Shown piece by piece: positions 8,111 to 48,567 of a stretch of DNA of 64,000 bases. Below the pieces are notes generated by a model. That model was not told the origin of the DNA and searched no databases. It saw only the letters and a list, made by a program, of their open reading frames with translations. Position numbers and translations under genes: made by a program. Position 1 is the first letter of the stretch. Every line of letters starts with the position of its first letter. The DNA comes from Thermodesulfovibrio sp. 3907-1M (GTDB lineage Bacteria; Nitrospirota; Thermodesulfovibrionia; Thermodesulfovibrionales; Thermodesulfovibrionaceae). The stretch is taken from assembly GCF_040450955.1 (NCBI RefSeq), contig NZ_CP144373.1, positions 1,220,486-1,284,485 of the forward strand, read 5' to 3'.

Positions 8111-8398
8111 TTAGAAAAATAATTTGATAAGTCCTGCAAAAACACCAGCAAGGATGGCGGTTTGAGCAATTAAAAATCCTGCTACCCATTTAATTATTTC
8201 TATCTTGAATTGAGCAAGTTTTACTTCAATATTTGCTTCCACTTCCCTAATTCTTGCTTCAATCTCTTTAATGTCTCTTCTTGTGGCAAGGTCATCTTTT
8301 ATTTCTTTTTCAAACTCTTTCAAAAATTCAATAAATGCCTCTGCCGCATCTTCTCCGAGGCGTTCTCTTACTGATTTTGGTAAACTTAATACTGGCAT
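8111..8398 (-). CDS. small DUF1640/CCDC90-like coiled-coil protein with C-terminal membrane helix
   Basis: 95 aa. Three parts: a short helical head (MPVLSLPKSVRERLGEDAAE), a charged coiled coil (about 25-68) with the LATRRDIKEIEARI pattern typical of DUF1640 proteins, and one membrane helix (IIKWVAGFLIAQTAILAGVF) at the C-terminus. The much longer protein at 46971 has the same plan and similar end segments. It is convergent with lptG (9 bp gap). Promoter-like TTGATT-18-TATTTT lies 6 nt before the ATG. Function unknown; probably an inner-membrane oligomer. Confidence 0.65.
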   Translation of the reverse strand: MPVLSLPKSVRERLGEDAAEAFIEFLKEFEKEIKDDLATRRDIKEIEARIREVEANIEVKLAQFKIEIIKWVAGFLIAQTAILAGVFAGLIKLFF

Positions 8399-44825: not shown

Positions 44826-45574
44826 TGGCTTTAATTCTTGTAACAAACGATGATGGCTTTTTCTCAAAAGGAATACAAACGCTTGCAGAAACTTTAAAAG
44901 AGCTTGGTGAAGTATACATTGTTGCACCAGACAGAGATCGTTCTGCTGTAAGTCATGCTCTTACAATGCACAGACCCCTACGAGTGGACTTAATAAGAGA
45001 GGGCTGTTACAGTGTAAACGGCACTCCTACTGACTGTGTTGTTGTTGGAGTGAAAAAACTTTTGCCCCGTGAACCTAATTTAATCGTGTCAGGCATAAAC
45101 AAAGGAGCGAACCTTGGAGAGGACATAACATACTCAGGAACTGTTTCAGCTGCTATTGAAGGAACAATTCTCGGAGTTCCCTCTTTTGCAATATCTATAG
45201 TTGGCGAAAGACCTTTCAGATATGAAACAGCATGTTACTATGCATTAAAGATAGCAAAATTCATTCTTGAAAAGGGTCTTCCTCATGATACACTCTTGAA
45301 TGTGAACCTGCCCAATAAACCTTTACAGGAAATCAATGGAATTAAAATAACAAAGCAGGGTAAACGTTCCTATGAAAACTCAATTCATGAAATTTTTTCT
45401 CCATGGGGAGAAAAACAGTACTGGATTGGAGGAGGAATTGTATCATGGCAGAAAATGGAAGGAACAGATATTCAGGCAATAATGGAAGGATATGTATCAG
45501 TTACTCCACTTCATATTGATTTAACAAATTATCAGGCATTGGAGTATTTAAGAAGACATGGCATTGAAGAATAA
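44825..45574 (+). CDS. surE: 5'/3'-nucleotidase SurE
   Basis: 249 aa. Metal-dependent phosphatase acting on nucleoside monophosphates. The N-terminal VTNDDGFFSKGI (catalytic Asp pair), VAPDRDRSAVSH and SGINKGANLGEDITYSGTVS are all family signatures. It is often near pcm, which is found 2.3 kb downstream here. It overlaps the next gene by 17 bp. Confidence 0.96.
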   Translation: MALILVTNDDGFFSKGIQTLAETLKELGEVYIVAPDRDRSAVSHALTMHRPLRVDLIREGCYSVNGTPTDCVVVGVKKLLPREPNLIVSGINKGANLGEDITYSGTVSAAIEGTILGVPSFAISIVGERPFRYETACYYALKIAKFILEKGLPHDTLLNVNLPNKPLQEINGIKITKQGKRSYENSIHEIFSPWGEKQYWIGGGIVSWQKMEGTDIQAIMEGYVSVTPLHIDLTNYQALEYLRRHGIEE

Positions 45575-46940
45575 GTATGATGTAATTATTATTGGTGCAG
45601 GACCTGCCGGTATTTTTACAGCCTTAGAGATAATTAAGAATGCCTCATTAAAAGTTTTAATTATTGAAAAGGGCAAAGACATTGAAAAAAGAAAATGCCC
45701 GATGGAGCAAACAGGAAAGTGTATCAATTGTCCAGTTTGTGATATTTTAAGTGGATGGGGTGGTGCAGGAGCTTTCAGCGATGGAAAATTGAATTTATCT
45801 CCTCAAATTGGAGGATTTTTAGATAAATACATGGAAAGAGACAGCCTTGTTGAACTTATTAATTATGTTGATAAAATATATCTTAAATACGGTGCTCCAG
45901 AAACAGTTTACGAGCCTGAGCCTAAGGTAGCTGAAAAAATCAAAAATCAGGCAGCAAAAAATGGAATTCTTTTTATTCCATCAAAAATAAGACACATTGG
46001 AACAGAAAGATGTGCTGAAATTCTTAAAGCAATAAAGGAGGAGCTTTCAGAAAAAGTTGATATAATCTTTGATTCTGAAGCCTTCAAAATCATTATAAAC
46101 AGAACAAAAGCTTTAGGGATTGAGCTTAAAGATAAAAGAAGATTCTATGCAAAATACATCGTTCTCGCACCTGGAAGAGCAGGAAGTAGCTGGTTAAGAG
46201 AAGAGGCAAAAAGGCTGAAATTAAATACAGAGCTTAATCCTGTTGATATTGGTGTTAGAGTGGAAGTTCCTGCTTCAGTTTGTGATGAGCTTACCAGAGT
46301 CTGTTACGAGCCAAAGTTTATTTATTATTCAAAAACTTTTGATGATATGGTAAGAACATTCTGTGTAAATCCCTATGGCGAAGTTGTAAGAGAAAACATA
46401 AATGGAATATGGACCGTAAATGGGCACAGTTATGCAAATAAAAAAACAGACAACACCAACTTCGCAATTCTTTCAAGCACATACTTTACAGAACCTTTCC
46501 GTGAACCAATTCTTTATGGACAGAGTATTGCAAGACTGGCAAATTATCTTGGACAGGGAGTTTTAATTCAAAGACTTGGCGATCTTAAAAAGGGTAGAAG
46601 ATCAACCCATGAGAGAATTCTTAAAAATCCTGTTCACCCTACCCTTAAAGATGCTACTGCAGGTGATCTCAGTTTTGTTTTACCATATCGGTATCTGGTA
46701 AATATTCTTGAAATGCTTGAAGCCCTTGACAGGATTATGCCAGGTATAAATTCAAATCATACACTTCTTTACGGAGTGGAGATTAAACTTTACAGTATGA
46801 GGCTTAAACTTACTGAAAGTCTTGAAACAGAAATAGATAATCTTTTTGCTGCAGGAGATGGAGCAGGTATCAGCAGGGGCTTGATTCAAGCTTCAGTATC
46901 TGGTATTCTTGTAGCAAGAGAGATACTAAGACGCGGTTAA
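45558..46940 (+). CDS. FAD-dependent oxidoreductase (COG2509-like)
   Basis: 460 aa. Rossmann FAD-binding start VIIIGAGPAGIFTALEI; four nearby cysteines (KCPMEQTGKCINCPVC) and GWGGAGAFSDGKLNLS are hallmarks of the COG2509 uncharacterised dehydrogenases. The C-terminal LFAAGDGAGISRGLIQA is the second FAD contact. Substrate unknown. It is last of the mtnA operon, overlapping surE by 17 bp. Confidence 0.88.
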   Translation: MALKNKYDVIIIGAGPAGIFTALEIIKNASLKVLIIEKGKDIEKRKCPMEQTGKCINCPVCDILSGWGGAGAFSDGKLNLSPQIGGFLDKYMERDSLVELINYVDKIYLKYGAPETVYEPEPKVAEKIKNQAAKNGILFIPSKIRHIGTERCAEILKAIKEELSEKVDIIFDSEAFKIIINRTKALGIELKDKRRFYAKYIVLAPGRAGSSWLREEAKRLKLNTELNPVDIGVRVEVPASVCDELTRVCYEPKFIYYSKTFDDMVRTFCVNPYGEVVRENINGIWTVNGHSYANKKTDNTNFAILSSTYFTEPFREPILYGQSIARLANYLGQGVLIQRLGDLKKGRRSTHERILKNPVHPTLKDATAGDLSFVLPYRYLVNILEMLEALDRIMPGINSNHTLLYGVEIKLYSMRLKLTESLETEIDNLFAAGDGAGISRGLIQASVSGILVAREILRRG

Positions 46941-46950: not shown

Positions 46951-46970
46951 TAACAAAAAAGGAGGAGTTT

Positions 46971-47912
46971 ATGCCTGTAACATTGCCAATAGAAGTATTT
47001 GAAATATTTGAGAAAACTTTTGGACGGGAAGATGCTAAAACTTTATTGAAATCATTTGAAAAAGTCACTGCCGATGAAATTTACCAAAAATGGTATGAAA
47101 CAAAAGAAGAATTAAAAGAAGAATTATTAAGAGAGGTTGCAACAAAGAAAGATTTAGAAATTCTGAGAACAGAGTTGCTTGGTAAAATAGAGGCATTATA
47201 CGAAAAAACAGAAAAAGACAAAACTGAGTTACTTAGCAAGATGGAGAAAGACAAAACTGAACTTCTCGGTAAGACAGAGAAAGACAAAACTGAACTTCTC
47301 GGTAAGACAGAGAAAGACAAAACTGAACTTCTCGGTAAAATAGAGGCATTATACGAAAAAACAGAAAAAGACAAAACTGAGTTACTTAGCAAGATGGAGA
47401 AAGACAAAACTGAACTTCTCGGTAAGACAGAGAAAGACAAAACTGAACTTCTCGGTAAAATAGAGGCATTATACGAAAAAACAGAAAAAGACAAAACTGA
47501 GTTACTTAGCAAGATGGAGAAAGACAAAACTGAACTTCTCGGTAAGACAGAGAAAGACAAAACTGAACTTCTCGGTAAAATAGAGAAAGACAAAGCTGAA
47601 CTTCTTAGTAAGACAGAGAAAGACAAAACTGAACTTCTCGGTAAAATAGAGAAAGACAAAGCTGAACTTCTCGGTAAAATAGAGAAAGACAAAGCTGAAC
47701 TTCTCGGTAAAATAGAGAAAGACAAAACTGAACTTCTCGGTAAAATAGATGCATTATATGAAAAAATAGAGAAAGACAAAGCTGAATTGTCCAGTAAAAT
47801 TAACAAGATCGATTTAACTCTTAAATTCCTCATCATTATAAACTTGATAGCTCTTACTCTTATGAATCCCGTGGCAGCAGAATTGATTAAAAAGTTATTT
47901 AAACTCGGTTGA
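46971..47912 (+). CDS. DUF1640/CCDC90-like protein expanded by 11-residue repeats
   Basis: 313 aa. The head (1-55) and the VATKKDLEILRTELLGKI stretch resemble DUF1640 proteins, and the C-terminus has one membrane helix (about 288-305, LKFLIIINLIALTLM) and an AELIKKLFKLG tail. Residues 81-277 are sixteen 11-residue units, consensus EKDK(T/A)ELL(G/S)K(T/I/M), interrupted by 7-residue spacers EALYEKT after units 4 and 7 and DALYEKI after unit 15; one EALYEKT also precedes unit 1. Eleven- and seven-residue steps both preserve coiled-coil register, so this should be a long membrane-anchored rod. The smaller relative is at 8111. Own promoter and strong AGGAGG. Function unknown. Confidence 0.8.
   Translation: MPVTLPIEVFEIFEKTFGREDAKTLLKSFEKVTADEIYQKWYETKEELKEELLREVATKKDLEILRTELLGKIEALYEKTEKDKTELLSKMEKDKTELLGKTEKDKTELLGKTEKDKTELLGKIEALYEKTEKDKTELLSKMEKDKTELLGKTEKDKTELLGKIEALYEKTEKDKTELLSKMEKDKTELLGKTEKDKTELLGKIEKDKAELLSKTEKDKTELLGKIEKDKAELLGKIEKDKAELLGKIEKDKTELLGKIDALYEKIEKDKAELSSKINKIDLTLKFLIIINLIALTLMNPVAAELIKKLFKLG
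47211..47801 (+). repeat. 33-nt coding tandem repeat array, 16 units
   Basis: Near-identical 33-nt units, such as GAGAAAGACAAAACTGAACT and on to the next GAG, with three 21-nt spacers inside the array. A 120-nt higher-order block (21 nt plus three units) is repeated almost exactly, from about 47341 and about 47461. High DNA identity implies recent expansion. Confidence 0.9.
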
Positions 47913-47919
47913 TTTTTCT

Positions 47920-48567
47920 ATGGATAAATACAAACATTTAAGAGAATGGATGGTTGAAACCCAGATCATTGAAAGAGGCATCAGGGATAAAAGGGTTATT
48001 GAGGTAATGAAAAAGATTCCGAGACATCTCTTCATACCAGAGGACATCATTGATAGCGCATATGATGATAGAGCTCTTCCAATTGGTCATGGTCAGACTA
48101 TTTCTCAGCCATACATTGTTGCTTTAATGACAGAATTACTTGAACTTAAAGGAGAAGAAAAGGTTCTGGAAATAGGAACAGGTTCTGGATATCAGGCTGC
48201 AATTCTTGCTGAACTTGCAAAAGAAGTTCATACCGTTGAAAGAGTTGAACCACTGGCTATTGCTGCGAAAAAAAGATTTGAAAATCTCGGAATTAAAAAT
48301 ATCAAAGTTTATATCAGAGATGGCACAGAAGGAATACCAGAAGAGGCTCCATTTGATAGAATAATTATAACTGCAGCAACTCCAGATATACCCGAACCAC
48401 TTATTGCACAACTAAAAGAGTATGGCATTATTGTTGCACCTGTTGGTGAAAGATACTCTCAGTATATGCTTAAAGCTATAAAAAAAGACGGCGAAATAGA
48501 AAGGCATTATCTGATTCCAGTAGCCTTTGTCCCACTAATAGGAAAGTATGGATGGAAAGAGGAGTAA
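47920..48567 (+). CDS. pcm: protein-L-isoaspartate O-methyltransferase
   Basis: 215 aa. It methylates isoaspartyl residues so that damaged proteins can be repaired. The SAM site is VLEIGTGSGYQAAILAEL; family-specific ALPIGHGQTISQPYIVALMTE precedes it, and the post-I motif is VHTVERVEPLA. It starts 7 bp after the repeat protein. The surE-pcm neighbourhood is common. Confidence 0.96.
   Translation: MDKYKHLREWMVETQIIERGIRDKRVIEVMKKIPRHLFIPEDIIDSAYDDRALPIGHGQTISQPYIVALMTELLELKGEEKVLEIGTGSGYQAAILAELAKEVHTVERVEPLAIAAKKRFENLGIKNIKVYIRDGTEGIPEEAPFDRIIITAATPDIPEPLIAQLKEYGIIVAPVGERYSQYMLKAIKKDGEIERHYLIPVAFVPLIGKYGWKEE

Follow-up and report, generated by a model that had tools for sequence, protein, structure and literature searches.

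The DUF1640/CCDC90-like proteins (PF07798), which include MCUR1, CCDC90B, yeast Put6/Put7 and bacterial homologues, have four parts in common: (i) a short N-terminal head; (ii) an ATK neck; (iii) a coiled-coil stalk; and (iv) a C-terminal transmembrane anchor. The function of their mitochondrial representatives (MCUR1, CCDC90B, Put6/Put7) is disputed. The consensus of the DUF1640 beta-layer is [aliphatic]-A-T-K-[polar]-[DE] (PMC4786415). A head-neck-stalk layout and beta-layer necks are also found in trimeric autotransporter adhesins such as BadA, whose neck-stalk length differs between strains (PMC7247748).

Here, we describe a rod protein of this kind encoded in a stretch of 64,000 nucleotides from Thermodesulfovibrio sp. 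3907-1M (hereinafter, the window), whose stalk is encoded by tandem DNA repeats. The locus was compared among 16 Thermodesulfovibrio genomes, one per species, including the window genome (G000) and that of a sister species (G001). The genus of the set was deduced from one of its members, G003, whose small paralog is identical to the one in Thermodesulfovibrio sp. N1.

Family membership

The rod protein presents the order head, neck, stalk and C-terminal anchor, according to its translation, an alignment with 12 relatives and helix prediction, with the transmembrane segment taken from hydrophobicity. At the start of the stalk, V56-A-T-K-K-D61 fits the DUF1640 neck; the corresponding neck in the sister species is IATKRD. 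Compared with the described members of the family, the protein stands out for the length of its stalk (~209 residues) and its 16 similar hendecads. PF07798 gives no match to the window protein at E <= 1, and matches two of 13 aligned relatives at E <= 0.1 (best value, 1.7e-4). Since 12 of the 16 genus genomes yield matches at E <= 0.1, all of which fall short of the cut-off, PF07798 must be regarded as insensitive for the group found in this genus. Searches of Pfam and NCBIfam with the full protein returned just low-complexity coiled-coil matches under the cut-off. Likewise, PDB searches gave no confident match; subfamily profiles weakly matched 6h9l (E 0.18-0.35), a solved chain which itself has 11-residue repeats, of the ATKEDIEALRK type.

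Two groups of paralogs in the genus, i.e. MPVTEIE (98-127 aa) and MPVLSLPKSVRER (95-123 aa), also have a head, an ATK/ATR neck, a variable stalk and a C-terminal anchor, but they differ from the window protein in their short stalks and their anchor of the I(I/R)(K/R)W(M/V)... type. The window head is 41% identical to the MPVTEIE paralogs, which match PF07798 below the cut-off (E 9.5e-4 and 2.8e-4). Direct descent of the window gene from these paralogs is ruled out because their anchor belongs to another subtype. The window anchor type, ..ALTLMNPVxAEIIKxLLKL, is found again in relatives that belong to other families within the phylum. As a separate observation, the MPVTEIE paralog of the sister species (L042 1444-1797) seems to have lost the initial portion of the head, and there is an overlap between its ORF and the final part of a PAS/kinase-like gene.

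On the basis of neck motif, architecture and relatives, the rod protein reads as a DUF1640/CCDC90-like member. An earlier note on this DNA had described it as a DUF1640-like, membrane-anchored protein, a description with which head, neck and anchor agree although PF07798 gives no match. Regarding trimeric autotransporter adhesins, these have an outer-membrane beta-barrel anchor and are exported to the surface, whereas the window protein has a single C-terminal helix. It lacks a 12-stranded beta-barrel anchor and a signal peptide, and its structural model is all helical; hence, the likeness is one of analogy and not of membership. By analogy, the rod protein may oligomerize as a trimer. The C-terminal anchor is putatively transmembrane, and the protein presumably lies on the cytoplasmic side of the membrane.

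Organization and age of the repeat array

The features of the rod gene and its surroundings are given in Table 1. The gene lies between two genes named from their sequence: that of a FAD-dependent oxidoreductase and that of what we take to be a protein-L-isoaspartate methyltransferase (pcm).

Table 1. Coordinates, in the window, of the rod gene, its parts and other features of interest.
Feature	Position	Strand	Basis
FAD-dependent oxidoreductase gene	45558-46940
Ribosome-site-like AGGAGGAG before the rod ORF	46960-46967	+	sequence
ORF, 313 aa, tail-anchored DUF1640/CCDC90-like rod protein	46971..47912	+	translation, ORF list
Head, residues 1-55, starts MPVTLPIEVFEIFEKTFGREDAKTLLKSFEK	46971..47135	+	sister-species identity, phylum profile matches
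Neck motif V-A-T-K-K-D, residues 56-61	47136..47153	+	translation, DUF1640 consensus (PMC4786415)
Repeat array (stalk), 16 hendecads of 33 nt and 4 heptads of 21 nt	47184..47795	+
Block 1: heptad and 4 hendecads (120-nt block plus one additional 33-nt unit)	47184..47336	+
Block 2 (120 nt): heptad and 3 hendecads	47337..47456	+	120/120 identical to block 3
Block 3 (120 nt): same sequence as block 2	47457..47576	+
Five more hendecads, mostly KIEKDK(A/T)ELLG subtype	47577..47741	+
Last heptad KIDALYE and last hendecad, most diverged of the array	47742..47795	+
Hendecad units (4, 3, 8 and 1)	47205-47336, 47358-47456, 47478-47741, 47763-47795		codon parsing
Heptad spacers (21 nt), start positions	47184, 47337, 47457, 47742		codon parsing
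C-terminal anchor LKFLIIINLIALTLMNPVAAELIKKLFKLG: one hydrophobic helix and amphipathic tail	47796..47909	+
Antisense open frame across the array, 251 codons	47081-47836	-
Gene taken to be pcm	47920-48567
Second DUF1640-like gene, 95 aa, MPVLSLPKSVRERLG..., behind yraN-like gene	8111-8398	-

For the rod ORF, TRF yields a score of 652 at period 120, while the maximum among 500 codon shuffles of the ORF is 89. The array units occupy residues 72-275 and are of two kinds: (i) hendecads of the type K(I/T/M)EKDK(T/A)ELLG; and (ii) heptad spacers, KIEALYE or KIDALYE. The 33-nt units and 21-nt spacers first noticed in the sequence are thus real on codon parsing, but the array had been placed at 47211-47801, slightly off its actual extent. 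The 120-nt higher-order blocks also proposed at that time are exact in the first three blocks only: blocks 2 and 3 are identical, and block 1, minus one 33-nt unit, equals both of them at 120/120 positions. Past 47577, the array continues as five hendecads, a heptad and a hendecad, out of the 120-nt order. Identity between units ranges from 70 to 100% (mean 86%), and two unit subtypes can be distinguished by their codons, namely ACA/ATG with ACT and ATA with GCT.

Each 120-nt block has ~23 silent sites, and at least two block comparisons are independent. By arithmetic that assumes no gene conversion, the 95% upper limit of silent divergence since the block duplications is ~0.065. Given that three 120-nt blocks are identical despite a dS of 0.70-0.85 in the flanking genes between the two gene-bearing species, the block part of the array is recent, in line with the recent expansion suggested in the earlier note.

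Coiled-coil phase

The hydrophobicity of the stalk (residues 72-280) peaks at 3.65 residues per turn with a value of 0.96, above every one of 300 shuffles (maximum 0.68), and the sister protein has the same period. Both the 33- and the 21-nt units thus keep the coiled-coil phase and, being multiples of 3 nt, the frame, as had been claimed. The observed period falls between 11/3 (3.667, hendecads alone) and 40/11 (3.636, the 40-residue block), and a straight helix has ~3.63 residues per turn (PMC4786415). Since the mix of 11- and 7-residue periods comes close to that value, it should yield a nearly untwisted rod. A single-sequence AlphaFold2 model contains helices at residues 34-153 and 161-298, with a pLDDT near 80-86 across much of the stalk and low elsewhere; as the mean pLDDT is only 68, the model backs the helicity of the stalk and nothing beyond. 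At 0.1485 nm per residue, the 209 residues of the window stalk would span about 31 nm; the stalk of the sister species would reach about 16 nm.

Comparison between sister species

The ortholog in the sister species is a protein of 211 aa, with 8 hendecads and 2 heptads as opposed to 16 and 4 in the window protein (313 aa). This disagrees with an old array of stable copy number, the finding that had been named as evidence against a recent expansion. Outside the array, residues 1-72 are 89% identical between both proteins, the 38-residue anchor differs at 6 positions, and head and anchor have a dN/dS of ~0.05-0.10, similar to that of the neighbouring enzymes.

The units themselves follow a different pattern. 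The hendecad KIEKDKAELLG is encoded by AAA ATA GAG AAA GAC AAA GCT GAA CTT CTC GGT in the window genome and, typically, by AAG ATA GAG AAG GAC AAG GCA GAA CTG CTT GGC in the sister species, and the nearest neighbour of each unit lies within its own genome (24/24). Between species, the pS of the units is 0.95, nearly twice that of the flanking genes (0.45-0.51); within genomes, it is 0.38 (G000) and 0.53 (G001). By contrast, their pN is ~0.09 both within and between genomes, with a pN/pS of ~0.1 between species. Because unit codons are species-specific while unit amino acids are conserved, it is likely that after the split each lineage re-amplified its own unit, the protein sequence of the unit being held by purifying selection. 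The higher number of silent differences among the G001 units points to an older or quieter array in that species. Third-position G+C is 0.57 in the G001 array (L002 1249-1884, minus strand), but 0.23 in the gene next to it, and the G000 array has 0.32; the high value probably derives from the amplification of one unit with those codons.

Distribution and possible loss of the gene

The rod gene is present in two of the 16 genus genomes, G000 and G001, at the same locus. In 11 other genomes, the oxidoreductase gene runs straight into pcm, mostly overlapping with it (empty site), and in the remaining three, all of them incomplete, the site was not located. The nearest relative by both flanking genes, G002, has no rod gene. 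Its junction retains a leader piece of 14-17 nt, TTAAATGTTATAAT, which is common to G000 and G001 and absent from the outgroups (L016); in this empty site, the piece looks like a deletion scar. In the protein tree, G002 and G000 group together with an ultrafast bootstrap of 86 and G001 falls outside, although the alternative topology is not rejected (AU p = 0.134). An earlier gain of the rod gene followed by its loss in G002 is therefore the favoured reading.

The second family member of the window (Table 1) is also informative. In comparison with its 95 aa, its orthologs at the yraN locus have 116 aa in G002 and 123 aa in G001, i.e. exactly 3 and 4 heptads more. The stalks of the three species have 27, 48 and 55 residues, so that successive lengths differ by 21 and 7; there is hardly any difference among the 21-nt units. 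At this locus too, length shifts between species in phase-keeping steps.

Interpretation

The reading that we consider probable is that of a tail-anchored DUF1640/CCDC90-like coiled-coil spacer, tolerant of stalk length, which grows by duplication of phase-keeping units. According to this proposal, the conserved N-terminal head and the ATK neck would be held off the membrane by the helical stalk and the C-terminal anchor. The stalk would grow or shrink as whole units of DNA (33, 21 and combined 54/66/120 nt) duplicate or drop out, presumably through slippage or unequal recombination, and the steps retained would be only those that disrupt neither the reading frame nor the hydrophobic seam. Selection would then preserve the amino acids of the units and not their number, as might be expected of a spacer. 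The claim that length is free refers to one species pair at the rod locus and to the yraN locus, and the species-specific lengths could each be adaptive.

Among the alternatives, an expansion by replication errors that is merely tolerated, with a functionless added length and a possibly dispensable gene, appears unlikely. The gene is missing in G002, with an apparent deletion scar, and its length is not conserved, as such an expansion would predict; nevertheless, head and anchor (dN/dS ~0.05-0.10) and units (pN/pS ~0.1) are under strong purifying selection and the tree with loss in G002, although favoured, does not lead to rejection of the other topology (AU p = 0.13).

We give still less credit to a molecular ruler, a possibility raised in the earlier note. 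Stalk length would then be tuned in each species to a defined spacing relative to the membrane, with selection for length behind the growth of the array. Purifying selection on unit composition and phase would suit a ruler, and so would the fact that no other protein of the family panel is as long as that of the window. But the only ortholog found reaches half the length with the same head and anchor, a close relative (G002) lacks the gene, and the stalk lengths of paralogs in one genome vary widely.

More doubtful still is a contingency locus, whose array length would vary among cells of one population and alter reach or exposure. Long identical blocks (three of 120 nt and many 33-nt repeats) suit recombination, but there is no sign of surface export in the sequence (no signal peptide, C-terminal anchor) and units that are all multiples of 3 cannot provide an on/off switch. 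In the on/off sense, the phase variation previously suggested does not fit: the 33-, 21- and 120-nt units within the ORF never shift the frame, which makes it very unlikely. Finally, we set aside as scarcely credible the notion that the repeat acts as a DNA or RNA element (binding array, antisense gene) with the protein being incidental, given that the antisense frame is open because of the repeat itself and that the unit differences between species are almost all silent in the sense frame (pS 0.95, pN 0.09).

Stalk growth in other family members

A contig scan with the full window protein found no relatives; in consequence, these were reached via the genus paralogs and a head profile. Out of 295 genomes of the phylum (Nitrospirota), the head profile has matches in 23, with up to eight copies per genome, and the paralog-based scan provided 80 named loci, spread over Nitrospirota, Bacteroidota, Planctomycetota and further genomes. 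In a panel of 115 relatives, a few of which appear longer than they are because of start codons upstream, the window protein (313 aa) ranks first in length, followed by one of 233 aa, and the median is 103 aa. Within one genome, paralogs differ widely in the length of their stalks.

Arrays were counted in 110 distinct family genes of at least 200 nt, among which close relatives are not independent. TRF detects arrays in 26 of them, 25 with a period of 21, 33, 54, 66 or 120 nt. The best periods are 33 nt (n = 15), 21 nt (n = 5), 54 nt (n = 2), 120 nt (n = 2), 66 nt (n = 1) and 12 nt (n = 1); only the last of these is not a sum of 21s and 33s. These phase-keeping periods are not an artefact of the search, because the panel was found by head, neck and anchor patterns and not by repeats. 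Contrary to the initial impression that such expansion was unheard of in the family, it is recurrent. None of the papers found in a literature search that lacked many subscription papers describes recurrent hendecad amplification in the DUF1640/CCDC90-like family.

Several Nitrospirota relatives (L145, L163, L165, L173, L174, L187 and others) share head and neck with the window protein but have stalks made of their own tandem units of 11 (33 nt) or 18 residues (54 nt), up to ~11 units; L145, for instance, combines the window-type head and the same anchor with 11-residue GKIE units. Since unit sequences differ between relatives, these arrays most likely arose separately from that of the window. 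Their neighbour genes, compared by eye, include no constant partner and, hence, gene context yields no function.

A broader and more tentative reading is that DUF1640-like proteins might be widespread "elastic" tail-anchored spacers whose stalk length evolves fast and repeatedly by phase-keeping unit duplication while head and anchor stay conserved, with the window gene as an extreme, recent and maybe population-variable case. In any case, the family offers a natural series on coiled-coil length, in which one type of head and neck is combined with stalks of ~30 to ~210 residues, and makes selection on coiled-coil phase visible in DNA, its tandem periods being almost exclusively heptad/hendecad multiples.

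Some minor observations deserve mention. L166 and L167 are adjacent family members in a genome with eight copies (G244), which suggests gene-level duplication besides unit duplication. L171 and L149 are probably decaying copies, since a stop codon (TAG, TAA) interrupts their frame shortly after it begins. Lastly, L045, L055 and L059 encode soluble coiled-coil proteins (158-206 aa) with LKQDVAT-like heptad repeats, which may resemble DUF3782-type proteins and whose repeat number varies between species of the genus.
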